The position numbers and the translations under genes were made by a program. 64,000 bases of DNA, taken from the NCBI RefSeq assembly GCF_028748185.1, contig NZ_CP118164.1, positions 5,853,814-5,917,813 on the forward strand. Reading direction: 5' to 3'. Positions 11,105-23,489 of the stretch are shown one piece after another. This stretch comes from Bremerella sp. P1. Lineage in GTDB: Bacteria; Planctomycetota; Planctomycetia; Pirellulales; Pirellulaceae. The notes under the pieces were generated by a model. It was not told the DNA's origin. It did no database searches and was given only the letters and a program-made list of their open reading frames with translations. Numbering within the stretch: position 1 is the stretch's first letter; each line of letters begins with the position of its first letter.

Positions 11105-12466
11105 TCAATGCAGTCCGTACCGGCTCATCTTATAGTGCAATGTGCGAACGCTGACCCCCAGCACTTTCGCGGTTTGTTCACGGTGAAAATCATTGGCCGC
11201 AAGGGAATTCAGGATTGCTTCCTTCTCGGCCTCTTCTGTTACTTCTGCCAGTGAGCGTGCTTTGCTTGCGGAAGCGTTTCTAGCAACCGAGCTTAATTCC
11301 GCAGGCAAATCATCCGCGGATATATTGTCGCTGCCTACCGTGACGACCAAGCGTTCGATGACATTACGTAATTGACGCACATTGCCTGGCCAATTTGCTG
11401 AAATGAGAACCTGCAAGGCCTCGTTGTCTACCGTCTTGAGTGAGCGATGGTGTCGCGTGCAAAAGTAATTCAGGAAATGCTCCACCAAGAGAACAATATC
11501 TTCACGCCGCTGCCGAAGTGGTGGAACTTCAATGGGGATGATGTTCAGTCGGTAGTAGAGGTCCTCTCGAAAACTCCCATCTTCTACTAATTGCGGGATG
11601 TCGCGGTTCGTGGCGGACACAATGCGAGCATCAGATGTAAGGATTGCTTCACCTCCCACTCTTGTGAACTGTCCTGTTTCAAGGACACGAAGCAAATCTA
11701 CTTGGCTCTTCATGGGGATTTCGGTGATTTCATCGAGGAATAACGTTCCTCGCATGGACTGTTCAAAGCATCCAGGTCTTTGTCGAGAGGCCCCTGTAAA
11801 TGCTCCCTTTTCATGTCCAAACAACTCGCTTTCCAATAAGTTCACCGGCAATGCACCGAGGTTGACGGGAATGAACGGGTATGTGGAGCGTTTGCTCAAG
11901 TCGTGAATTGCCCTGGCGATCAACTCTTTCCCCGTGCCACTTTCGCCATGGATCAAGATGGTGGCATCCGTGTCAGCAACCTGTCGAATCTGTCGCAGTA
12001 CATCGTTTAGAGCTTGGCAATTTCCGATGATATTCGGCAATTCGCCTGCTTCAGCCAGCCGATCCTTCAAGAAGCGGTTTTCGGTCTGCAACCGATGGTG
12101 TTCGACTGCCTTGGCAACTTGCTGTCGGATTAAATTCAAATCAACCGGCTTGGTAATAAAGTCGAATGCCCCACGACGCATCGCGTCGACTGCCATCTCA
12201 ACCGTACCGTGGGCAGTTATCATGATCATCGTGGTATTGGGTTCGCGCTGCTGGATCAGCGACAACAACTCGAGGCCATCACGATCCCCCGGCAACCGGA
12301 CATCGGCAATAACAATCTGGAAGCTCTCCGTATCGAACTTGTCGAGTGCTTCGTTTACGCTACTCGCCGTGTCGATGTGATCGACCTCTTTCTCAAGGCC
12401 TTTGGCCAACCCGGAGCGAATGTTCGGCTCGTCATCAACAATCAGAATGCGAAAAGCTTCGTCCAT
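11105..12466 (-). CDS. NtrC-family response regulator, sigma-54 activator
   Basis: 453 residues in the standard three-domain order. The receiver domain (1-120) has acidic pocket Asp11-Asp12, phospho-acceptor Asp55 (in IADVRLPGD) and Lys106. The AAA+ domain (~143-375) has Walker A GESGTGKE (174-181), the sigma-54 contact loop GAFTGA (221-226), Walker B TLFLDEI (241-247) and the arginine-rich block DLYYRLNIIPIEVPPLRQR. The C-terminal Fis-type helix-turn-helix ends in GVSVRTLHYKMSRYGL. An intact GAFTGA loop means it should activate sigma-54 RNA polymerase. It is transcribed with the histidine kinase (4-bp gap between the genes) and lies beside the carbonic-anhydrase/DAB genes. A sigma-54-type promoter precedes dabA, so those genes are its likely targets by inference. 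Confidence 0.96.
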   Translation of the reverse strand: MDEAFRILIVDDEPNIRSGLAKGLEKEVDHIDTASSVNEALDKFDTESFQIVIADVRLPGDRDGLELLSLIQQREPNTTMIMITAHGTVEMAVDAMRRGAFDFITKPVDLNLIRQQVAKAVEHHRLQTENRFLKDRLAEAGELPNIIGNCQALNDVLRQIRQVADTDATILIHGESGTGKELIARAIHDLSKRSTYPFIPVNLGALPVNLLESELFGHEKGAFTGASRQRPGCFEQSMRGTLFLDEITEIPMKSQVDLLRVLETGQFTRVGGEAILTSDARIVSATNRDIPQLVEDGSFREDLYYRLNIIPIEVPPLRQRREDIVLLVEHFLNYFCTRHHRSLKTVDNEALQVLISANWPGNVRQLRNVIERLVVTVGSDNISADDLPAELSSVARNASASKARSLAEVTEEAEKEAILNSLAANDFHREQTAKVLGVSVRTLHYKMSRYGLH

Positions 12467-12470
12467 GACC

Positions 12471-13832
12471 TTAGTCCGAAGGTAAAGTGACTTGTCGAAT
12501 TGGCAACGTCATCACGAAGGTCGTACCTTCTTGGCTACTAAAGAAGTCAAGACTGCCATTGTGCTGTCGTACGATTTTGTCGCATATGGCTAGCCCTAAA
12601 CCTGTTCCTTCGCTTTTGGTTGTGAAATAGGCATCGAATACCTGATCACGGAGATCCTCTGGAATTCCAGTCCCCGTATCCGAGATTTCGACACGAACCG
12701 CGTCGGAAGACTCCGTTACCGCAACGGAAAGTTTGCCCCCGTGGGGCATGGCTTGCATCGCGTTGACGAACAGGTTGAGCAAAGTTTGTTCCAATCGGAC
12801 AAGATCTGCTGTTAAATTTGGCAAAGGAAAATCCGGCAGGACGAAATGAACCTCGATTCCCTGCTGATTCGCTTGAGGAATAGCCAGATCGACTTGGCGC
12901 TGGATGAGCTTGACAAGATTCACCTCTTCGAGCCTTAAATTGTCCATCGATGCAAACTCACGGAATCTCTCTAACACTTCCCCAATTCGCGTCATTTCCG
13001 ACTTAATTACCGCCATCATCGGTTGCACGTCTTCGGAATCTCGGTTTTCCTCAAGTTGTTCTTCCAGGAGTTGGACATGTAGAGATAGAGCTGCCAGTGG
13101 ATTTCGGATTTCATGATGAAGCCCTGCTGCTAGAGACCCAAGTCCCATATAACGTTCCATTCGACGCATTCTCTCTTCCATCAGGACGCGTTCCGTTACA
13201 TTGCGTAGTTGCAAGACTTGGCCGATTTCCTTCCCTTCGAAGTCATTCAATGATTGACACGTCGCCCGGATGGTCCTTCCATCGGTACTAAGATGAAAAT
13301 CTCTTGTCATTGACGATGACTTTGCCGTCTGCCCTTCAATTAAGAGCTGATCAAGGGCAAGGTCTCTTGAGAGCTCGTTAACGTGCTTGCCTATACAGTC
13401 GAGCGTGGCTCCCAATAAATCCATGCCATGACGATTGATGCTGGTAACGATGCTGTTTTGATCGGTTGTGATTACCGTCTGATCCATGCTGCTGAGAATA
13501 TGACCGGCCAACGCCTTGATGTCCCGCAGGGATTCCTGCGATGACCTATAGGCGCGAGAAAGCAATATGAGCGCCAGACCAGTCGCGACAAGATTAAGAA
13601 CGACAAGGATGGAAAGTCGAAACTGCCAACGTAATTCGCTAGCCAACTCCTTGGCCGTAGCTGTTGAATCACGGGGTAGTTTTGGCGTCAGTTCTTCGAC
13701 GATGGCTTGTTCTCGCAGAAAGTCAGCCATCGTCCAAATTGTTATACCCAGTGCCGCGAAACTGAGCAGCAACAGTCCGGCAATGGAAAGCCGATAGCCC
13801 TTGCCGGTACCGACAGGTTGAGTTCGAAACAT
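12471..13832 (-). CDS. Membrane sensor histidine kinase
   Basis: 453 residues. Two transmembrane segments (about 15-37 and 73-95) enclose a short ~35-residue external segment. This is too small for a classical sensor domain, so the signal may be sensed in the membrane or by the PAS domain that follows (~105-215). The HisKA domain has the phospho-acceptor His240 in GLHHEIRNPLAALS. The HATPase domain follows, with LNLFVNAMQAMP (N box), DTGTGIP (G1) and GTGLGLAI (G2). The architecture is that of NtrB/AtoS-type kinases that pair with sigma-54 activators. It directly precedes the response regulator in the same operon and lies 124 bp downstream of the carbonic anhydrase gene. A co-transcript with that gene is possible. 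Confidence 0.95.
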   Translation of the reverse strand: MFRTQPVGTGKGYRLSIAGLLLLSFAALGITIWTMADFLREQAIVEELTPKLPRDSTATAKELASELRWQFRLSILVVLNLVATGLALILLSRAYRSSQESLRDIKALAGHILSSMDQTVITTDQNSIVTSINRHGMDLLGATLDCIGKHVNELSRDLALDQLLIEGQTAKSSSMTRDFHLSTDGRTIRATCQSLNDFEGKEIGQVLQLRNVTERVLMEERMRRMERYMGLGSLAAGLHHEIRNPLAALSLHVQLLEEQLEENRDSEDVQPMMAVIKSEMTRIGEVLERFREFASMDNLRLEEVNLVKLIQRQVDLAIPQANQQGIEVHFVLPDFPLPNLTADLVRLEQTLLNLFVNAMQAMPHGGKLSVAVTESSDAVRVEISDTGTGIPEDLRDQVFDAYFTTKSEGTGLGLAICDKIVRQHNGSLDFFSSQEGTTFVMTLPIRQVTLPSD

Positions 13833-13939
13833 AGGAACAGCAGATTAAGGTATTTAAAGCGGTTGCTCCAACGATTCACACGGATTCCCCTAGTTGCGAG
13901 GTTACCAGAGTGCGCACTCAATCCGCTCGAACGTGAGAT

Positions 13940-13954
13940 TCTGGTATCACCAGA
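13940..13954. repeat. Short hairpin just after the carbonic anhydrase stop
   Basis: TCTGGT-ATC-ACCAGA is a perfect 6-bp-arm inverted repeat only 2 bp past the carbonic anhydrase stop codon and before the histidine kinase gene. No T run follows on the minus strand, so it is not a classical terminator. It could process or stabilise a carbonic anhydrase-kinase-regulator transcript. Confidence 0.4.
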
Positions 13955-13956
13955 TC

Positions 13957-14622
13957 TTAGATCGGTGGAAGCGTTCGTTGTTTCTCGCTTACTGGTGAAG
14001 TGACATCCTGCAGTGGTAAGAACTGATTCTGATCCGGATCAAAGGCAAATACGTCGCCAGTCTCAAATTTGTAGACCCAGCCATGTAGTTTCAAATCGCC
14101 ACGGCCAATTGCCGCAGCAACCGCAGGGTGGGTTCTCAGGCTCTCCAATTGAACCAGGACATTCTCTTCCACGGTCAGGGTTAGTCTCTTTGCCGGATCC
14201 GTTAAGTGGGAATAGTTTTCTTCGACGATTCGCCTCGTGGCTTCCGCGTGTTGGAGATAGGCGCGAACCGCCGGCATACTCTCGACCATTTCCGGCGTTA
14301 GGAGGCCGGCCATCGCTCCGCAGTGAGAATGTCCGCAAATGACGATATCACGGACCTTCAATGCCGCCACTGCATACTCGATCGTTGCAGCCTCACCACC
14401 AAGAATAGACCCGTACGGAGGGACAATATTTCCAGCAGTACGTTGAATAAACAATTCACCAGGTTTCGTCTGCGTGAGACGACTCGGGTCGATACGTGAA
14501 TCCGAACAAGTAATAAATAACGCCAAAGGATGCTGCCCATCGACCAGTGTTTCAAATAGCTTTTGATCCTTGCTGAACTGCTCACTTTGAAATCGATGGA
14601 TTCCTTGAACTAATTGCTGCAT
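13957..14622 (-). CDS. Beta-class carbonic anhydrase
   Basis: 221 residues, cytoplasmic (no leader). It interconverts CO2 and bicarbonate. All canonical beta-class residues are present: zinc ligands Cys39, His98 and Cys101 (in CGHSHCGAM), and the Asp41-Arg43 dyad in the C-S-D-S-R motif. The surrounding blocks [15 protein letters not shown] and [24 protein letters not shown] are those of prokaryotic clade B-like enzymes. Length is normal for the family. It is divergent from dabA across a 331-bp intergenic region and upstream of the two-component genes. Together with DAB and SulP this points to management of inorganic carbon. No good sigma-54 promoter was found on its side. Confidence 0.96.
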
Positions 14623-14752
14623 GGGTTGATCCCTTGGTTCAAAAAGATGGTCTGTGCAAAAGACTGCACGGCATCTGCAAAAAATTGCGTGATTGGTATT
14701 CCCAAATTCTATCCATTGTCCGGCCGATTGGCTGCCTGGTTTGTAGTTTTTG

Positions 14753-14771
14753 GGAACAAAAGTTTTGTTCC
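14753..14771. promoter_or_regulatory. Perfect 19-bp palindrome, candidate activator site
   Basis: GGAACAAAA-G-TTTTGTTCC has perfect 9-bp arms around one central base. It lies about 70 bp upstream of the -24 element. It is long enough to be a dimeric binding site, most simply for the neighbouring Fis-type helix-turn-helix regulator. It could instead be a terminator-like structure, but no gene ends here. Confidence 0.6.
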
Positions 14772-14781
14772 TAGCCCAACT

Positions 14782-14820
14782 TTCCGGAAGTGTACTCTTA
14801 CTTGAATGCCCGGATTCAAG
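14782..14820. promoter_or_regulatory. Second pair of palindromes upstream of dabA
   Basis: TTCCGGAA (14782-14789) is a perfect 8-bp palindrome. CTTGAAT-GCCCGG-ATTCAAG (14801-14820) has perfect 7-bp arms. Neither matches the 19-bp palindrome, so they may be distinct sites or chance. They end about 18 bp before the -24 element. Confidence 0.45.
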
Positions 14821-14836
14821 ATCTTTAAACCTCCTT

Positions 14837-14853
14837 CCGGCATGAAGATTGCA
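14837..14853 (+). promoter_or_regulatory. Sigma-54-type (-24/-12) promoter before dabA
   Basis: CCGGCATGAAGATTGCA contains GG (14839-14840) and GC (14851-14852) at the exact 10-base spacing. It fits the consensus TGGCAYG-N4-TTGCA except for C in place of the first T. Expected transcription start is near 14863, about 90 bp before the dabA ATG. An NtrC-family activator with an intact GAFTGA loop is encoded next door. Confidence 0.7.
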
Positions 14854-14953
14854 TAGAGCAACAGTGATCTATACGAATAGTCCCTCCCCACTCGAGCAGG
14901 GATCGATAAGCCCCGCCTATTTCGTCTGACCGTTAGCCAGGGCCAATTTAGCT

Positions 14954-17900
14954 TTGGAATGCACTACTGAATCTTCGGACGAGCCGGTCGATGACCATCG
15001 CAGAATGGATGCGATCCGCAAATTGGTTGAGCATGCCGCGCACCTGTTGCCGTCCCAGGGGCCGATCGAGGTTTTTGTCCATCACAATACACTGCATGCG
15101 TATGAGGACTTGCCCTTTCATGAGGCGGTGAAGACGGGCCTGGCACGGTATGGCGCTCATCCCTACTTACCGGAGCAAGAGTATCGGCAATTGTTTCGGG
15201 AAGGTCGTATCACGGATGAGGATCTCCAGGCAGTCTTGCAAGAAGAGCTTGGCACTCATTTTCACGAGCAAATCAACGGTCTGGGAACGCGAGGGCAAAT
15301 TCGTATGGCGATGCTTCGCCATCCAATCCACGTTGGTCCCGATGCGGAACTAAAATGGATCGTGGCGGAAACCGATGCCCTTGATCGGTTTCGCACGGAG
15401 GTTCCCAAAGACCTTCGTGATCGTGTAATCGCTGGAACGAGACAGTGGCTACAACAAGAGCAAGCATCTGAAAGCGTCCAGGCGGTGGATCTGGGCGAGC
15501 TTGTTACCAAGTTCGGTAGCAACTATCCCGAATGGAATGAATCTGCCTGGGAAGCGTTCTCGTTACATCTGCTCTGGCGAATCTGTCGCAGCGGGATTCA
15601 ATCCATTCCGCCTCAAGTTTCCACCAATCGTTATGTACGTCCACGCGATCTTTTGCTCAATGCACTTGGCGTCGACATCGACCGCGACGTGCATGATCTG
15701 TTAATCCGATTCTGCGCGGCGTACGTCGATCAAGGCTATTCCGATTGGGAATTGCCTTGTCGCGACAAGGGGTTCTATGACGCATTTCTGACATTGTATT
15801 CGCAATCGAATTGGTGTTCGGATCGGTGGTTGCGCGGGCTCGAGGGAGAGTTGTGTCGATTGCAGAGTTCTGGCATTTCTCCAGAAGCATCCATCGAAGA
15901 ATCACTGGGAGCGTTAGGGATCTCCAGCGACGACCGAGAAGAATTCATAATCCAAACACTACTAAGCCTGCGTGGTTGGGCGGGAATGGTCTGGCAACTC
16001 GAGTCAGGCGCGGGGCCGGTTGTTCATTCGATTGCGAAAGGATCTTTGCTTGGACAATTGGCTGTTCAACTGATTCTAGAGCGATTTGCAATCATCAATG
16101 TTGGTCTAGAGACAACCGGGAAGGTTAGCAGTGCTTCAGACGTATTGCAGTATGCTCGTACGAGAATTTCTGAGCCACGACCACTGAGTGTAGAACGCCG
16201 CGCGTTTCTCTTGTTTCAAGTAGCCCAGACACTTGGCTGGCAGCCACAGCAGTTGTTGGCCTTGACTGAAATCCAATGGCAGGAACTGTATGACGAAGCC
16301 GACGCATTCTCAGCCGTCGAACGACGTCGCGTTTTTCATGAGGCATTCGAGCGAAAGTATCGACACGAAGCGCTCGATGCTTTTGTGAACCATACACGTG
16401 CCCTTAACGCATCTATGGCGGAACGAGAACCGCGTCGTCCGGAGTTTCAAGTCCTAACCTGTATCGACGATCGAGAAGAGTCGTTCCGCCGGCATCTGGA
16501 AGAAGTGCATCCTGCATGTGAAACATTTGGTGCTGCGGGATTTTTTGCGGTAGCTATCTATTATCAAGGTGCAGCAGACAGTTTTTACAAGCCGCTTTGC
16601 CCCGCCGTAATCACTCCCAGCCACTATGTTCAAGAAGATGTTGGCTATACGTTTGAAGGAATGCACCGAGAGCGGGCCGAGTTGAGAAGAAGAATTGGGT
16701 TGGCGAGTCACGCGTTCCATACTCGTAGCCGAACGTTTCTGGGGGGAATCGTTACTGGCATCGTCGGATCTTTGGCCACCGTTCCGCTCGTGGCCGGTGT
16801 GCTGTTTCCCCATCTTACCGCACGCATTCGCAAACACCTGGGGACTTTGGTCCAGCCGCCACCGGTGACAACACTTCAACTGGAACGATATGAAAAGGAC
16901 CCCGGCCCGGAAAACGGTCATATTGGATTTACCTGCGACGAAATGGCCGATGTTGTCATTCGGTTGATGCAGGACATTGGTGTCACGACCCCGGAGTCGT
17001 TTTCCCGCCTGTTCGTTGTTTGCGGACATGGTTCTTCGAGTCTCAACAATCCTCATGAGTCCGCATACTGTTGTGGGGCGTGCGCGGGAAAACGAGGCGG
17101 TCCGAATGCCAGAGCGTTTGCCAAGATGGCCAACGATTGGCGAGTACGTGCCAAAGTCCGGCAGGCGGGAATATCGATTCCAGACGACACGGTATTCGTC
17201 GGAGCTTACCACAATACGTGTGATGACTCGGTTGTGTTTTTTGATTTGGATTCGCTGCCAGCATCGCATCATGAGGATTTCGAAACCGCTCGAGACGCTA
17301 TTGAGGAAGCACGTAGTCGAAATGCCCACGAGCGCTGCCGACGTTTTTTTTCCGTGCCTCTGTCCGTTTCTCCCAAAGAAGCCATTCGGCACGTTGAGGC
17401 CCGTGCTCAAGATATTTCACAGGCCCGGCCAGAATACAATCACGCCACCAATGCGCTTTGTGTTGTCGGGCGACGTGAGTGGTCACGGGGACTATTCCTA
17501 GATCGCCGAGCATTTCTCACATCTTACGATCCGGCCCAGGACGACGACGATCACTCCATTCTCGCGCGAATTCTGGCGGCGGCAATTCCCGTTTGTGCTG
17601 GTATCAATCTGGAGTACTACTTCTCGCGTGTTGATCATGAGGTCTACGGCTCTGGATCGAAGTTGCCTCATAACATTGTTTCGCTGCTAGGGGTCATGGA
17701 AGGTACGGCAAGTGATTTGAGGACCGGTCTTTACCGTCAAATGGTTGAGATTCACGAACCGCTGAGAATATTGTTTGTGATTGAATCAACTCCCGAGGCT
17801 CTCCTTTCGATCATGCAAAGCAATTCGACCATCGGGCGATTATGCCGTGGCGGTTGGATCAATTTGGCAGTCATCGACCCGAAACAATCGATGGTTCAAG

Positions 17901-18040
17901 TCTATAGAGATGGGCAATTTGAACCGTATGAATCCGGCAGTGGCTACCTGCCTGAGGCATCCTCCTCCGTAGAATGCTATCGAGGATTTCGCGAGAACTT
18001 GCCGTTTTATTCAATTGCGGAAGTGGTGGAGCGGCAATGA
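14954..18040 (+). CDS. dabA: DabA-like DUF2309 protein: inorganic carbon converter subunit A
   Basis: 1028 residues, no leader, cytoplasmic or membrane-peripheral. DabA of the DAB complex resembles a beta-carbonic anhydrase active site and, energised by its membrane partner DabB, turns CO2 into trapped bicarbonate. The zinc and catalytic residues are visible: Cys503 and Asp505 in T-C-I-D-D-R-E, His692 in VVCGHGSSS, and Cys707 in [12 protein letters not shown]. The His-to-Cys spacing of 15 residues equals that of the characterised Halothiobacillus protein. The N-terminal region has [18 protein letters not shown], typical of DUF2309. The length is in the upper normal range. The stop overlaps the next start as ATGA, so it is translationally coupled to the membrane subunit. 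A sigma-54-type promoter lies upstream. Family assignment is strong; transport activity is inferred. Confidence 0.95.
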
Positions 18041-19425
18041 CCGTTGAGTTTGTCCTATTTGTCCTGGGAGTTGTGGTCGTCGTCAGTCCAACGGTATTAG
18101 TTGCGGCCCTGGCGCTGCCTCTGCTGATGGGGATCCGACTAAGTGAGTTCGTCCAATCGAGACTGACCAAAACCAGTGTCGTCACGGGCTTGTTGGCTGC
18201 GGTCGGCATTCTGGGAGTCATGCTCGCCTCGGGATCGCGTCATGTGCCAATTGAACTTGGAAACTGGGTTTCCATCCCGCAGGAACATTTTCATTTTCAT
18301 CTTAAGTTTGTCTTCGATAGGCTGTCCGTCCCGTTTGCGATTTTGTCCTTCGTTCTTTGTGGGACGGTTGGTGCGTTTGCTTCGGTGTATCTGCATCGAG
18401 ATCGCGGCTATCGACGTTTCTTCTTGCTGTATGCGCTATTCTTATTGGGAATGGTCGTCTCGTCGTTAGCTGGCACCATCGAAACATTGTTCTTTGGTTG
18501 GGAACTGGTTGGTCTGTCGTCGGCGTTACTTGTTGCGTACTTCCATGAGCGTCCTGCTCCTGTTCGCAACGGACTTCGGGTCTGGGCAATCTATCGTATT
18601 GCGGATGCTGCATTCTTGATTGCCGCATTGACGCTGCACCATTTGACGGGAGCCGGCGACTTTGACGGGCTTATGGGCTCAGGCCCTTGGCCCGACGGTG
18701 TCGCCGCAATCGATTCCACGTCGGCACTCATGGTTGGTCTACTCCTGCTACTGGCTGCCGCTGGCAAGTCGGGGATGGTGCCGTTTTCTGGCTGGATTCC
18801 CCGCGCGATGGAGGGTCCTACGCCATCGAGTGCCGTGTTCTACGGAGCATTGTCGGTTCACCTGGGCGTGTTTCTTTTGCTGCGTGTGAGTCCGCTATTG
18901 GACGTTTCAGTTCCTCTGCGGGTGGCGGTCATCGTGCTGGGAATCTCCACGGCTATCTTTGGAGCCATTGCGAGCCGTGCCCAAAGCGATGTGAAGAACG
19001 CCTTAGCCTTTGCTTCGTTGACCCAAGTCGGCATCATCACTGTTGAGATTGGGCTCGGACTACAATATGTAGCTCTGATCCATATGATTGGCCATGCCTG
19101 TCTGAGAACGCTGCAACTGCTACGCGCACCTTCTGTCCTGAAGGATTACAGGATGTTGGAAAACGCCGTAGGTAGCCACCTGAGTGGCCATAGGTCGGTT
19201 GAGTCTCCAGTCGCGACTTCTCGTCAAATTTGGCTATATCGATTTGCTCTCGAACGTGGCTATCTCGACGCTTTACTTAATTGCTGGATCGTCGTTCCAT
19301 TCATGAGCGCATTTCGCACCTTCGATGCTCTGGAGCGACGCTGGACCAGTTTCCTTTCCGGTGGCGAATCACGCGAGTCGGACCGTCTAGCTCCATACGG
19401 AGATTCGCTGGAGGACGTTGCGTAA
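18037..19425 (+). CDS. dabB: DabB-like membrane subunit (NuoL/MrpA-type cation channel, PF00361)
   Basis: 462 residues from ATG 18037-18039, which overlaps the dabA stop; the longer frame inside dabA is not used. It is a polytopic membrane protein with about 12 helices and Complex I antiporter-type motifs. [18 protein letters not shown] (near residue 155) has the helix-5 Glu, and [27 protein letters not shown] (near residue 245, in two blocks) has the conserved Lys and Pro. The C-terminal region [14 protein letters not shown] resembles DabB proteins. It should conduct H+ or Na+ and energise DabA. It is somewhat shorter than typical DabB (about 500-550 residues). It is followed immediately by a second protein of the same superfamily, which is not found in the minimal dabAB operon. 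Confidence 0.9.
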
Positions 19426-20897
19426 TGTCCGAACTTCACATGCCCTGGCTGGGTTTGACTGTGCTGCTGCCGCTGGTGGGTGCGATTGTGGTGTCGTTGA
19501 TGAAGGATCGTGATCGCGCACGGCAAGTAAGCATTGCGATAGCTGTCGTAACGCTCCTGTGTGCCTGCGGTGAATGGATCGATTTTACGACGCTGCATTC
19601 CTTCGAAGCACACGATCACTGGGATATCTTTCAATTGTTCTTTGCAAGCGATGCGTTTGTATTGGACGAACTTAGTGCGCCCCTTATCCCACTGGGGGCT
19701 TTGCTCTATCTTACGACCATCCTGACAACCCTTCGAACGAAGGTGAATCGCTTTTCTTTCGGGTGGACGCTGTTCTCGGAATCCTTGCTACTCGCAACGC
19801 TTGGTTGTCGCGATCCTTGGTTGATAATTTTGTTGCTGGCTGTCGGTGTCGTTCCGCCTTGGATTGAATTGCGCAAACGCCACCAATCGACGCGAGTATA
19901 CTCGCTACACATGGGGCTATTCGTCGGCCTGTTGGTTGTTGGGCAATCGTTGGTAGGACCTAGTGCATCCGCCGCCAATCCGCCCATTCTTGCCGGTTGC
20001 CTTTTGACTGCGGGGGCCTTGATTCGAAGCGGAATTTGTCCGTTGCACTGTTGGATGACGGACCTATTTGAGAAGGCAACCTTTGGCACGGCATTGCTGT
20101 ATGTAACTCCGATGGCAGGTGCCTATGCTGTGATGCGACTGGTGTTTCCGATTGCCCCTGCCTGGGCTCTGCAAAGTATCGCCATCTTGTCCATGATGAC
20201 TGCCGTTTACGCTGCCGGCATGGCCTTGGTTCAGCATGATTCGCGCCGATTCTTTTGCTACCTGTTTTTGAGCCATTCGTCTCTAGTCTTGGTCGGGCTT
20301 GAAATGACGACCTCCATCGGCTTAACAGGGGCTTTGTGCGTCTGGCTTTCCGTGGGAATCTCGCTGTTAGGCTTTGGTCTGGCATTGCGATCCGTCGAAG
20401 CACGGACGGGGCGCCTCTCGCTCGATGCATTTCACGGGCTTTACGAACATACTCCATTTCTGGCTAACATGTTTCTACTGACAGGCTTGGCATCGATTGG
20501 ATTCCCCGGGACGATTGGATTTATTGGAACGGAGTTGCTGGTCGAGGGAGTCGTCGATATCTATCCGATGATCGGTTTTGCGGTGGTTCTGGTGGCCGCA
20601 CTGAACGGCATTGCTGTCGTCAAGGCTTACTTTCACGTCTTTACCGGAACACGTCACTTGGCGACGGTGTCACTCAACTGCCGGCCAGCCGAACGCGTAA
20701 CTATTTTGATCATGGTGGTATTGATCATCGGCGGGGGAGTGTTTCCTCAACCCGGAGTTCGATCTCGGTACCACGCAGCGACGGAATTGATCAAGTTGCG
20801 AGGAACCGATGAATTCACACAACACTCGCCTACTGCGCGCGTTAACCCGAGCGACAATTCACAACATGTTTCTCCCGTGCATTCCGCTCTTCCCTAA
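19425..20897 (+). CDS. Second NuoM/MrpD-like membrane subunit of the DAB locus
   Basis: 490 residues from ATG 19425-19427, overlapping the dabB stop as TAATG. It is polytopic (about 13 helices) and belongs to the proton-conducting NuoL/M/N superfamily by its layout and phrases such as [19 protein letters not shown] (near residue 205). The usual channel residues look altered: the helix-7 Lys position reads Arg-Ser before the G-I-C-P-L-H segment. The helix-5 Glu, expected in the [11 protein letters not shown] region, is absent. It may thus be a divergent or structural partner of DabB and not an active pump. Gene order dabA-dabB-this gene with two overlaps implies one stoichiometric complex. The role is inferred from context. 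Confidence 0.8.
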
Positions 20898-20917
20898 TCA
20901 ATTATTCGAGTCGAATT

Positions 20918-22852
20918 ATGCCTGAAGATAAACCTGCCAACGAAATTCCTCGCGGAAATGCGACTGGGTTCATCAAGTACTTACAGTACGACTTCAATTC
21001 GGGATTCTTGGTCTTTCTGATTGCGCTTCCGCTTTGTCTGGGGATCTCGCTCGCATGCGGATTTCCCCCCATTGCAGGCATCTTCACTGCAATTGTCGGC
21101 GCGGTTCTAACACCGTTTATCAGTAACAGCGAGTTGACGATCAAAGGGCCAGCGGCTGGATTGATCGTGATCGCCATCGGTTGTGTTCAGGACTTCGGTG
21201 GTGATGGTATGACAGGCGGTTGGACAGAATCAGACATGGCTGCCTACCGGGCTGCCATCGCTGTGGGGGTTGCCGCAGGTGTGCTTCAAATTGTGTTCGG
21301 ATTGTTTCGTGGTGGAATCCTGGGCGAGTTCTTCCCTGTCTCCGTTGTTCACGGCATGTTGGCTGCAATTGGCGCCATCATCATCGTCAAGCAGATTCCA
21401 GTCGCCTTGGGTGTCTCGGCCGGAGGCGAGCCGATGGAAATGATTCGTGAGATCCCGCATTACCTAATGGAAGCAAATCCTGCCATCGCGGCGATCGGTG
21501 TCATTAGTCTACTGATTATGTTCCTATGGCCCTTGGTAACCGAACGCGTAACGTTTTTGAAAAAGGTTCCGGCACCGGTCGTTGTGCTTCTAGTTGCCGT
21601 ACCCATGGGCATGGGTTTCGATCTCTTGCACGAGCATTCCTACACCTTGCAGGGGCATAAATACCAACTTAGTGAACAGTACCTCGTGAAGATGCCGGAT
21701 AAAGTCTTCGGGATGTTCAATGACATTACGTTTCCCGAGTTCTCCGTCCTGGCACAAGGCAAGGCGTGGAAGTGGATTCTGATGTTCTTCATTATCGGCA
21801 GCCTGGAATCGGTGCTGAGTGCGAAAGCGATCGACCTACTCGACCCATGGAAACGCAAGACAAAGATGAATCGCGACTTGATTGCGATAGGCGCTGGGAA
21901 TCTATGTGCGTCTCTGATTGGCGGTTTGCCAATGATTTCTGAGATCGTTCGATCCAAGGCCAACATCGATAATGGAGCAAGAACACGTTTTGCCAACATG
22001 TGGCATGGAATGTTTCTGTTGGCTTGTGTTGCCTTGATTCCCTTCTATCTGCATAGGATTCCATTGGCGGCCTTGGCTGCGATGCTGATTTACACCGGCT
22101 ATCGCCTAGCCCACCCGAATGAATTCGTACATGTTTACCGAATCGGCAAGGAACAACTTGCCATCTTTGTCACGACTTTGGTGGTCGTTCTGGCTACGGA
22201 CTTGCTGGTAGGTGTCGCTGTTGGGATCTTGCTCAAGATGGTCATTCATATCGCCAACGGCGTCTCATTGCGATCATTGTTCAAGCCCTATATCGAAGTC
22301 CAGGAGATCGACGAAAACACGAGTGTGATCGTAGCTCGCGAATCCGCCGTATTCAGCAACTGGCTGCCCTTCCGACGCCAGATTGAGCAGATTGGACTGA
22401 TTCAACAACGCAACTTGGTGGTTGATGTATCGGGGACCAAGCTGATTGACCATAGCGTGATGGAGAAACTGGAAGAGGTCCAGCGAGATTTTGAGCAAGA
22501 AGGACTGAAGTTCGAAGTTCGAGGGCTGAACGTTCTAGAACCATTTTCCGACAATGTACATGCGACACGAAAGCGACGCCCTAAAATTATGCGACGTGTT
22601 GCGTTTACGATGGAATCCGAGTACTTCCCTAGACTCGAAGAGAGACTTCCTCAATCTGGGGCGAGCATCTTTTCAATAGTTCCATGCAATTCATCGGAAG
22701 GAAATTCGCTAATCCGTATTGAAATCATTTTGTCGCAACAGTTCTGCGAAAGCTTTCTCGAATTTATCCGGCAAGAAGTGCTCACCGAGAAAAACATATA
22801 TGCTTGCGTAGATTCAATTGAAATTGCTCAACACGAATCGAGGGAAGCATGA
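20918..22852 (+). CDS. SulP-family anion permease with STAS domain
   Basis: 644 residues. The first ~430 residues form a SulP transport domain of roughly 12-14 helices with family phrases: [53 protein letters not shown] and [25 protein letters not shown] domain follows (about 450-550) with [21 protein letters not shown]. The last ~90 residues are an extension with no clear family. SulP proteins import bicarbonate (BicA), sulfate or other oxyanions. Placement 20 bp after the DAB membrane genes and 34 bp before a carbonic-anhydrase-like gene favours bicarbonate, as in other SulP-carbonic anhydrase pairs. The substrate is inferred from context only. Confidence 0.92.
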
Positions 22853-22886
22853 CCCTTCATTTAGGATCATGCGATAGGATGCAGTA

Positions 22887-23489
22887 ATGAATCCGCTTGA
22901 TTCCTCCGTTCACCATTTGCCGGTCGAGTATTTTGGCACGGCGAATGACTTTCTGTCGTCGGCGGAAAGCACGGAGAGAGATACATTGATGATTGCTTGT
23001 GCAGATCAGGGAGGTAGCCCCGATGATGTTTCGTTTGCGAAGCCAGGTCGTTTGTTTGTGGTCCAGCACTTAGCAGCGTCGATTCGTCCTGCAGGCGATG
23101 CTGGCGATAATTCATCAGTTTCGAGCATCGAATTTGCATTTTCACTATACAAAATCAAACACGTGATTGTGTGTGGACATACTGAATGCGGCGTGATCCG
23201 AAACTGGATTCGCTACCCTGACACTCCTGACGTAAGTGGAATCCGAGCTTGCTTTCAGACCACTTTGAAGACCGTGAATCAAGCATATCCCGACTATTTG
23301 GGCGAGGATCTTATTGAGACCATGATCTGTGAACACACTCTGTTTCAGTTGGAGCATCTTTGTTCTCATGCGTTTATCCGTAACAAGCTTGACGCAGGGA
23401 AGTTGCGGTTGCACGCCTGGGTCGTCAATGACGACACTGCACGTGTTCGTTCATACGATCCTACTCGTAGTTGTTTCACGATCATCTGA
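22887..23489 (+). CDS. Beta-carbonic-anhydrase-like protein with an altered Asp-Arg dyad
   Basis: 200 residues, no leader. The fold is that of a beta-carbonic anhydrase and the three zinc ligands are kept: Cys38, His98 and Cys101 in CGHTECGVI. Asp40 is present, but the motif reads C-A-D-Q-G instead of C-x-D-x-R, so the catalytic-dyad Arg is replaced by Gly42. The following loop, usually QRNAGN, reads VQHLAASIR. In known beta enzymes the Arg holds the Asp that gates the zinc, so activity may be low, altered or regulatory. It lies just after the SulP gene. It differs clearly from the canonical enzyme at 13957-14622, so it is not a recent duplicate. It could be a bicarbonate-binding accessory protein of the transporter. 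Confidence 0.88.
   Translation: MNPLDSSVHHLPVEYFGTANDFLSSAESTERDTLMIACADQGGSPDDVSFAKPGRLFVVQHLAASIRPAGDAGDNSSVSSIEFAFSLYKIKHVIVCGHTECGVIRNWIRYPDTPDVSGIRACFQTTLKTVNQAYPDYLGEDLIETMICEHTLFQLEHLCSHAFIRNKLDAGKLRLHAWVVNDDTARVRSYDPTRSCFTII

Follow-up and report, generated by a model that had tools for sequence, protein, structure and literature searches.

Does a DabA gene followed by two antiporter-like genes mark an ordinary DAB, or a system that is built and controlled differently? The question is raised by the window, the 64,000-nucleotide stretch of Bremerella sp. P1 DNA analysed here (C1:5853814-5917813 of a one-contig 6.96-Mb genome), which carries an island of eight genes that includes dabA, the genes for two membrane subunits (B1 and B2) and one for a SulP-family transporter. 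An earlier note on this DNA had described the island as an ordinary DAB. The data presented here place it in a distinct class by its residues, its partners and its clade, and the reading judged rather probable is that of a sigma-54-controlled inorganic-carbon uptake operon around a distinct His-type DAB with a NuoL-NuoM pair. The reference system is DAB2, the DabA2-DabB2 complex of Halothiobacillus neapolitanus (PDB 9rd0; PMC13144422, 2026, cited here and below from part of its text). Relatives are given by locus (L) or genome (G) number where they have to be told apart.

A His-type class of DabA

The DabA protein of the window covers positions 1-747 of the 747 in the PF10070 model, and its zinc ligands (C503/H692/C707) and dyad (D505/R507) are intact; C503, D505, H692 and C707 lie where the earlier note had put them, and R507 is added to the list. 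When it is aligned to the DabA2 of 9rd0, Gly602 occupies the finger position of Glu444 and His830 the position of Leu658. In DAB2 the finger Glu444 is essential, with both E444A and E444Q abolishing activity; it takes the place of Lys399/Asp400 in transmembrane helix 12b (TM12b) of NuoL, and the coupling model for DAB2 rests on it (PMC13144422). Leu658 is described in the same source as 'strictly conserved' in 150 homologues, at a position where beta-carbonic anhydrases have Gln or His.

The two exchanges were followed through a pooled set of 162 DabA rows, made up of the window, a DabA2 fragment, four plasmid proteins and 156 distinct open reading frames (ORFs), six duplicates among 162 ORFs having been dropped before counting. 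The Leu658 position is His in 129 rows, Asn in 4 and Leu in 29. The Glu444 position is occupied by Glu in 27 and by Asp in 2 of the 29 Leu rows, and by no acid in any of the 133 His/Asn rows, and the zinc ligands and Asp/Arg dyad are kept in both types (133/133 and 29/29). The first comparison had given His 38, Asn 2 and Leu 2 at the Leu658 position of long rows (n = 42) and Leu in 19/19 short rows, with Glu at the Glu444 position in 19/19 short and 0/42 long rows. Beyond these first sets, a scan of titled genome contigs yielded at least 565 relatives, and 79 of the best 80 of these carry His at the Leu658 position and the remaining one Asn, and the finger window is acid-free in 79/80. The His type forms one clade, with one change on the tree and a value of 100 in the Shimodaira-Hasegawa-like approximate likelihood ratio test (SH-aLRT), when the trait columns are left out of a 53-row tree made by a quick method and rooted by midpoint. 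A literature search found no description of this class, although it did not cover the primary 2019 DAB paper, which may mention planctomycete variants.

In the structural model the finger consists of helices 565-591 and 595-617, with a predicted local distance difference test (pLDDT) value of 84.7 overall and lower in the finger. A Foldseek search with this model gave a weak match to the beta-carbonic anhydrase 8thm (E 1.1e-3), and DAB2 entries are absent among the 50 of 161 matches listed.

Several loci show DabA genes of other build. L091 and L092, which supply the two Leu-bearing long rows, represent a third DabA type, with about 30% identity to the window DabA and Asp at the finger position, and adjoin SulP and carbonic anhydrase genes. 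L112 has a 1385-residue ORF, a long canonical-type DabA frame with DabB ahead in the same stretch; it may be a naturally occurring counterpart of the engineered DabB-DabA fusion that was used for the DAB2 structure. In L101 and L102 (small-genome family f60) two differing His-type DabA-B pairs stand back to back on opposite strands, each with a B gene of about 660 codons, and these are possibly two non-equivalent pumps driven from one control region. In L180, from a Baikal Gemmataceae metagenome-assembled genome (MAG), dabA and B2 are each broken into several ORFs, by assembly error or decay.

Two unlike membrane subunits

The earlier note had counted two DabB-type subunits; both do match PF00361, but they are unlike each other. 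B1 (462 residues) is NuoL-like, having both PF00361 and PF00662 and matching the DabB2 of 9rd0 at 1.2e-23. Its Glu156 occupies the position of NuoL Glu144 and is kept in 38/38 rows and in 72/72 of a larger set; Lys244, His349 and His353, which correspond to proton-path residues of NuoL/DabB, are also present, together with Arg357. Loss of this NuoL ion-pair Glu in DabB2 (Ile151) is linked to the coupling of DAB2 (PMC13144422), and 19 other DabB rows have Val (10), Ile (5), Met (1), Ala (1), Glu (1) or a gap (1) there. The only Glu among the 18 with a letter is that of L092, beside the third DabA type and not in a short operon.

B2 (490 residues) is NuoM-like. Its best match among solved sequences is the NdhD chain of the NDH-1MS complex (6tjv, E 2.7e-21), and the top folds for its model (pLDDT 92.2; predicted template-modelling score, pTM, 0.91) are complex I subunit M, NdhD and MrpD, with template-modelling scores of about 0.8. 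The two broken helices of the antiporter fold are visible in the model, at residues 188-202/209-217 and 344-357/364-379. Arg201 and His208 lie at the broken TM7-like helix and Glu370 (20532-20534) lies in the second, TM12b-like half of the broken TM12-like helix; the column of Glu370 is an acid (Glu or Asp) in 38/38 rows and in 63/64 of a larger alignment.

B1 and B2 follow dabA at 60 of the 62 loci with 3.2 kb behind dabA that come from the best 80 relatives. In the pooled set, 88 His-type loci come with flanks of 3.5 kb to either side: B1 and B2 are both present at 78 of them, a single longer B gene at 8, and neither arrangement at 2. Leu-type loci flanked in this way have a single DabB in 15 of 15 cases. 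Every one of the eight longer genes (ORFs of 653-814 residues) carries an acid in the B2-370 column, and the B2 hidden Markov model (HMM) matches the C-terminal part of six of them, so that judged by its sequence the longer gene appears to be in effect B1 fused to the tail of B2.

Conservation of gene order had been put forward in the earlier note as a check. Of an initial set of 39 relative loci (L034-L072), 37 have the order dabA-B1-B2, and L047 and L055, the remaining two, stop at a contig end; the full eight-gene set is found only in L034 and L036 among these 39, some of which are cut by contig ends. The conserved unit is dabA-B1-B2, often plus SulP. Within 7 kb of dabA, at loci with 6 kb on both sides, SulP is found at 41/75, an orthologous regulator at 11/75 and a carbonic anhydrase at 15/75. 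The window DabA used as a query matches DabA of either type in 76 of 147 relatives and in 78 of 391 genomes sampled from the phylum. By record title, which for MAGs is fallible (one is titled 'Akkermansia muciniphila'), the best 80 of the at least 565 relatives are from Planctomycetota (60), Verrucomicrobiota (9), Myxococcota (4), Acidobacteriota (1) and Actinomycetota (1), with the phylum unstated for 5. A cultured relative, Bythopirellula polymerisocia (L128), is among the loci compared.

Comparison with known systems

In the broad sense, judged by its domains, the island is a member of the DAB/DAC (PF10070-PF00361) systems. With DAB2, DAC and MpsAB it shares a PF10070 DabA, a zinc site (C351/H524/C539 in DabA2), a dyad (D353/R355), a two-helix finger and a NuoL-like partner. 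However, the canonical hallmarks of the DAB2 type, namely the finger Glu, Leu658, the loss of the NuoL ion-pair Glu and a single membrane subunit, are all absent: the island lacks Glu444, has His for Leu658 and a NuoL-type Glu in B1 for Ile151, pairs a B1 of 462 residues (551 in DabB2) with an additional NuoM-like B2, and has the order A-B1-B2, whereas the short DabA of relatives is encoded in DabB-DabA operons with one DabB.

A second PF00361 gene is not new as such, because DAB1 of H. neapolitanus has an interstitial gene described as 'mrpA family, PFAM 00361' and works in carbonic anhydrase-free E. coli (Flamholz et al., PMC7714395, cited from part of its text). DAB1 (hneap_0907-0909) was compared through a plasmid of Nitrobacter hamburgensis (L097) and not through the H. 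neapolitanus sequences. The two systems share a long DabA and three genes, but the Nitrobacter DabA1 keeps Glu and Leu, and its genes run DabB-253aa-DabA-PII beside RuBisCO and carboxysome genes. BLASTP finds no similarity between the 253-residue protein and B2 even at E 10, and the B2 HMM matches it only at E 2. Identity of the island with DAB1 was ruled out on these two grounds, and what is new relative to DAB1 is the residue pattern and the NuoM-like B2. No PII domain was found among the ten proteins scanned, and carboxysome shell genes were not searched for. On the Nitrobacter plasmid the DabB-253aa-DabA-PII cassette occurs twice in tandem, with a LysR gene, just before the RuBisCO/carboxysome genes.

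The DAB1 precedent bears on the possibility that the island is, after all, an ordinary two-subunit DAB, in which DabA and B1 are the functional parts, B2 is an accessory or spare cation-antiporter subunit, and the missing finger Glu is compensated within B1 or DabA. An extra PF00361 gene in a working DAB1 would fit this, as would the proton-path residues kept in B1 and the DabA of L106 (G518), which has a Glu one residue before the finger position. Nevertheless, the explanation appears unlikely, as it is opposed both by the company that B2 keeps with DabA (78 of the 88 full-flank loci, and among the other 10 there are 6 to 8 whose longer B gene ends in a B2-like tail) and by the Nitrobacter comparison above.

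The cyanobacterial NDH-1MS complex is similar in layout: a carbonic anhydrase-like zinc subunit (CupA) sits on the NuoL-like NdhF3, next to the NuoM-like NdhD3 (sources cited in part), and B2 is like the NdhD of 6tjv in fold (template-modelling score 0.81, rank 11). The CupA fold is quite unlike that of a beta-carbonic anhydrase, however, and NDH-1MS is a redox-driven complex with 19 isolated subunits, so the likeness is a parallel and not membership. B2 resembles MrpD as well as NuoM, and MpsAB has been argued to use sodium (PMC13144422). Both observations would suit a bicarbonate carrier coupled to a cation, or else an Na+/H+ system of Mrp type that balances pH and salt, with a DabA that senses bicarbonate or CO2 and is no hydrase. 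That account is quite unlikely, given that the zinc site and dyad of a beta-carbonic anhydrase are invariant in the class (133/133); the frequency of SulP near dabA (41/75) points to inorganic carbon, yet is compatible with it as well.

A probable sigma-54 circuit upstream of dabA

The earlier note proposed that the DAB is wired to an NtrC-type activator, and this is supported by sites in cis and by the co-occurrence of sites and regulator. Usable upstream sequence was available for 109 His-type loci, 19 of which have the orthologous regulator beside dabA (about 17 distinct, because L054/L056 and L057/L141 share identical DabA stretches). All 19 have a sigma-54 core of at least 6/8 (6.2% in shuffled sequence). 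If no more than one mismatch is allowed, each also has one or more TGCAA-N4-TTGCA sites (shuffled 3.3%), and 15 have two (shuffled 0.1%) at a spacing of 20-21 bp; the enhancer starts 88-290 bp before the start of the -24/-12 core. As the motif was first noticed in L035, L036, L051, L063 and L138, four of which are among the 19, 15 of the 19 loci are independent of its discovery. The core is present at 13 and the site at 12 of the 66 loci with 5.5 kb upstream and no adjacent regulator, and at 7 and 4, respectively, of the 24 truncated loci. In the Bremerella genome the enhancer pair of the window is the only pair at the fixed spacing, with up to 3 mismatches allowed.

The association also holds in trans. 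In 30 genomes with no adjacent regulator in the dabA stretch examined, the regulator orthologue was searched for genome-wide and was found (64-78% identity) in 7 of 8 genomes with a site and in 1 of 22 without (Fisher p 3e-5); for 6 of the 30 loci, which have no start anchor, upstream sequence was taken from the first codon of the open frame. Without the two loci that lack upstream sequence the counts are 7/1/1/19 (p 5e-5). Among the site-less genomes, the best match reaches 55% in G139 and is at most 45% in the remainder, except in G027. In two of the seven, G016 and G045, dabA is preceded at a distance of 12-13 kb by an orthologue on the same contig. The dabA contig of G089 offers only 1.3 kb of upstream sequence, so the regulator may in fact be adjacent there. 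Further loci with a site and no adjacent regulator include L138, L139 and L146. Two copies of the orthologue (64-71%) are present in each of G045 and G021, where the regulatory circuit may be duplicated.

Taken together, these sequence comparisons support a dedicated NtrC-type circuit that would control His-type dabA. As in other NtrC-family sigma-54 systems, there is a receiver, an AAA+ domain with GAFTGA, a Fis-type helix-turn-helix (HTH) and an inverted-repeat enhancer that is mostly tandem; the difference lies in the target, a DAB operon. The view of the earlier note that such wiring was undescribed agrees with a literature search, drawing in part on partial texts and not covering the primary 2019 DAB paper, that found no description of NtrC-type control of a DAB operon. 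The signal came only from comparison across loci, as a generic sigma-54 scan of the whole window gave 28 matches with 31.5 expected. On the strand of CA1, the carbonic anhydrase gene beside the enhancer, there is no sigma-54 core (best 2/8), so CA1 may be controlled differently.

A perfect 19-bp palindrome (14753-14771) was considered as the shared enhancer and rejected, since in a scan that kept the three best exact palindromes per upstream it was listed for the window only among 18 upstreams, while TGCAA-N4-TTGCA recurs. Separately, at L081 (G033) a canonical DabB-DabA pair is followed by a histidine kinase, an NtrC-like regulator (38% identity to that of the window) and SulP, so sigma-54-type wiring may also occur with canonical DABs.

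Layout of the island and genome setting

The ORFs and domains of the island proposed in the earlier note are confirmed, but the genes number eight and not nine (Table 1). The response regulator, the sensor kinase and CA1 are divergent from dabA-B1-B2-sulP-CA2. Overlaps of 4 bp had been reported between the genes; this holds for dabA/B1 only (ATGA), the B1/B2 overlap being 1 bp (TAATG), and SulP and CA2 follow after gaps of 20 and 34 bp. GAFTGA was read from the translation of the regulator, and two transmembrane segments are predicted from hydropathy close to the N-terminus of the kinase.

Table 1. Features of the Bremerella sp. P1 island, in window positions.
Feature	Position	Strand	Evidence and remarks
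RR, NtrC-type response regulator	11105-12466	-	PF00072 receiver, PF00158 sigma-54 activation with GAFTGA, PF02954 Fis-type HTH
HK, membrane sensor histidine kinase	12471-13832	-	PF00512, PF02518
CA1, canonical beta-carbonic anhydrase	13957-14622	-	PF00484 158.5 bits; CSDSR ... CGHSHCG, GQHP
Putative tandem enhancer (upstream activating sequence, UAS)	14655-14689		TGCAAAAGACTGCA 14655-14668 and TGCAAAAAATTGCG 14676-14689, spacing 21 bp
Perfect 19-bp palindrome	14753-14771		GGAACAAAAGTTTTGTTCC; between enhancer and promoter
Putative sigma-54 -24/-12 core	14838-14853	+	CGGCATGAAGATTGCA; upstream of dabA
DabA, His-type	14954-18040	+	PF10070 779.6 bits; start codon TTG as in the ORF list, provisional
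DabA finger, helix-loop-helix, residues 565-617	16646-16804	+	Model and alignment
B1, NuoL-like	18037-19425	+	PF00361, PF00662 (scanned on the longer listed ORF 17974-19425)
B2, NuoM-like	19425-20897	+	PF00361 (scanned on the longer listed ORF 19281-20897)
SulP-family anion transporter	20918-22852	+	PF00916 193 bits; candidate bicarbonate importer
CA2, beta-carbonic anhydrase-like	22887-23489	+	PF00484 80 bits; dyad Arg absent (CADQGG)

SulP scores 103 bits against the BicA model, which has a cut-off of 880. Import of bicarbonate by this protein is plausible by analogy, because in T. pelophila one SulP near carboxysome genes rescued carbonic anhydrase-deficient E. coli, although another SulP did not (PMC12628692, cited from part of its text). 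The downstream gene that the earlier note took for a variant carbonic anhydrase does encode a beta-carbonic anhydrase-like protein, CA2, but the Arg of the CxDxR dyad motif is gone: the window and L034 read CADQGG, and L036 reads CSDQGA. The L035 copy has lost metal ligands, has Asn for the His ligand and does not align at the dyad. CA2 is probably a decaying pseudo-enzyme and not a working carbonic anhydrase, to judge from these residues.

Elsewhere in the genome, a second DabA, preceded by one DabB only, is encoded 56 kb ahead of the window, a sigma-54 gene is present and the beta-carbonic anhydrase family has three genes, CA1 and CA2 included. RuBisCO, reported absent from the window in the earlier note, is absent from the whole genome (no match to PF00016, for which 5 of 14 control genomes are positive). 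Phosphoenolpyruvate (PEP) carboxylase and a pyruvate-carboxylase-type protein (PF02436) are encoded and are plausible consumers of bicarbonate, which fits the suggestion already made that the island feeds carboxylation.

Proposed mechanism

The data allow a model in which the sensor kinase would detect a signal tied to low CO2 or bicarbonate and phosphorylate the NtrC-type regulator. The regulator would then bind the tandem TGCAA-N4-TTGCA-like sites (14655-14689) and activate sigma-54 polymerase at 14838-14853, a step to which the cis and trans comparisons both point, and dabA-B1-B2-sulP-CA2 would be transcribed. DabA, as a zinc beta-carbonic anhydrase-like protein, would sit via its finger on the NuoL-like B1 and the NuoM-like B2; this assembly is suggested by gene order, by co-conservation and by the natural fusions of B1 to the B2 tail. 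Protons, or another cation, would enter via B1/B2. According to the alignments and the B2 model, Glu370 in TM12b of B2 may replace the finger Glu444 of DabA, with B1 keeping the ion-pair Glu of NuoL: since Glu444 stands in for TM12b residues of NuoL, it would be most straightforward for B2 to do here the job that the finger does in DAB2. The flux would drive one-way hydration of CO2 to bicarbonate, SulP would import bicarbonate as such and, because there is no RuBisCO, the product would feed PEP and pyruvate carboxylases. Most likely the island is an inducible, proton-driven CO2-to-bicarbonate converter with a two-subunit engine.

The same residues can be read in the opposite direction, with bicarbonate dehydrated and CO2 released in a reaction coupled to outward proton pumping, so that energy is conserved or bicarbonate disposed of. 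B1 keeps the NuoL ion-pair Glu that is linked to regulated pumping in complex I and that DabB2 is without (PMC13144422), and His830 restores a beta-carbonic anhydrase-like residue. A reverse run is nevertheless highly improbable, since on general grounds its thermodynamic driving force is weak, and the SulP and regulator context is better suited to uptake.

A number of observations weigh against uptake through a distinct, B2-assisted DAB. The co-occurrence of traits in the His type is a single historical event and not repeated independent evidence, because the type is one clade. The finger is not wholly without acids, as 9 of the 133 His/Asn rows have one elsewhere in the finger window, and L106 combines a His-type DabA, B1 and B2 with its near-position Glu; this DabA branches near the base of the class and for both reasons may be an intermediate. 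The Glu of B1 also occurs outside the class, the 370 column lacks an acid in one of 64 aligned B2 rows, and in the alignment Glu370 is shifted by one register from the acid of complex I NuoM, whose own residue in that column is Phe. The B2 HMM fails to match two of the eight longer B genes, and in two Schlesneria MAGs (L140 and L142) a His-type dabA has no B1 or B2 downstream; in L140 it is followed on the opposite strand by genes that we take to be flagellar. On the regulatory side, G027 encodes a regulator orthologue (65%) although its dabA is preceded by no site and no core, and G099 shows the converse, with one site but no orthologue. A canonical carbonic anhydrase next door, such as CA1, would if co-expressed short-circuit the bicarbonate pool. 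Finally, His830 need not matter, because in DAB2 L658Q has no activity in vitro and Leu658 is replaceable in vivo (PMC13144422).

Significance

The chances are about even that the His-type DABs, spread over five phyla by record title, form a class of vectorial carbonic anhydrase in their own right, in which coupling runs through a NuoL-NuoM pair instead of a single DabB and a finger glutamate. They may also have preserved an older state, from which DAB2 would have been streamlined, the finger glutamate replacing the second subunit. The His of carbonic anhydrase type, the Glu of NuoL and a separate NuoM-like subunit resemble the presumed ancestors and so point that way, on a DabA tree rooted by midpoint only.

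The coupling model for DAB2 could be tested on this large natural class as it stands, since the class has neither the finger glutamate nor the conserved leucine but does have a second antiporter-like subunit. As DABs are of interest for the engineering of carbon uptake, a differently built one would be useful. Furthermore, the island suggests that bacteria that have no RuBisCO may capture CO2 inducibly, and it offers a testable sigma-54 control circuit, the sites of which are named here.

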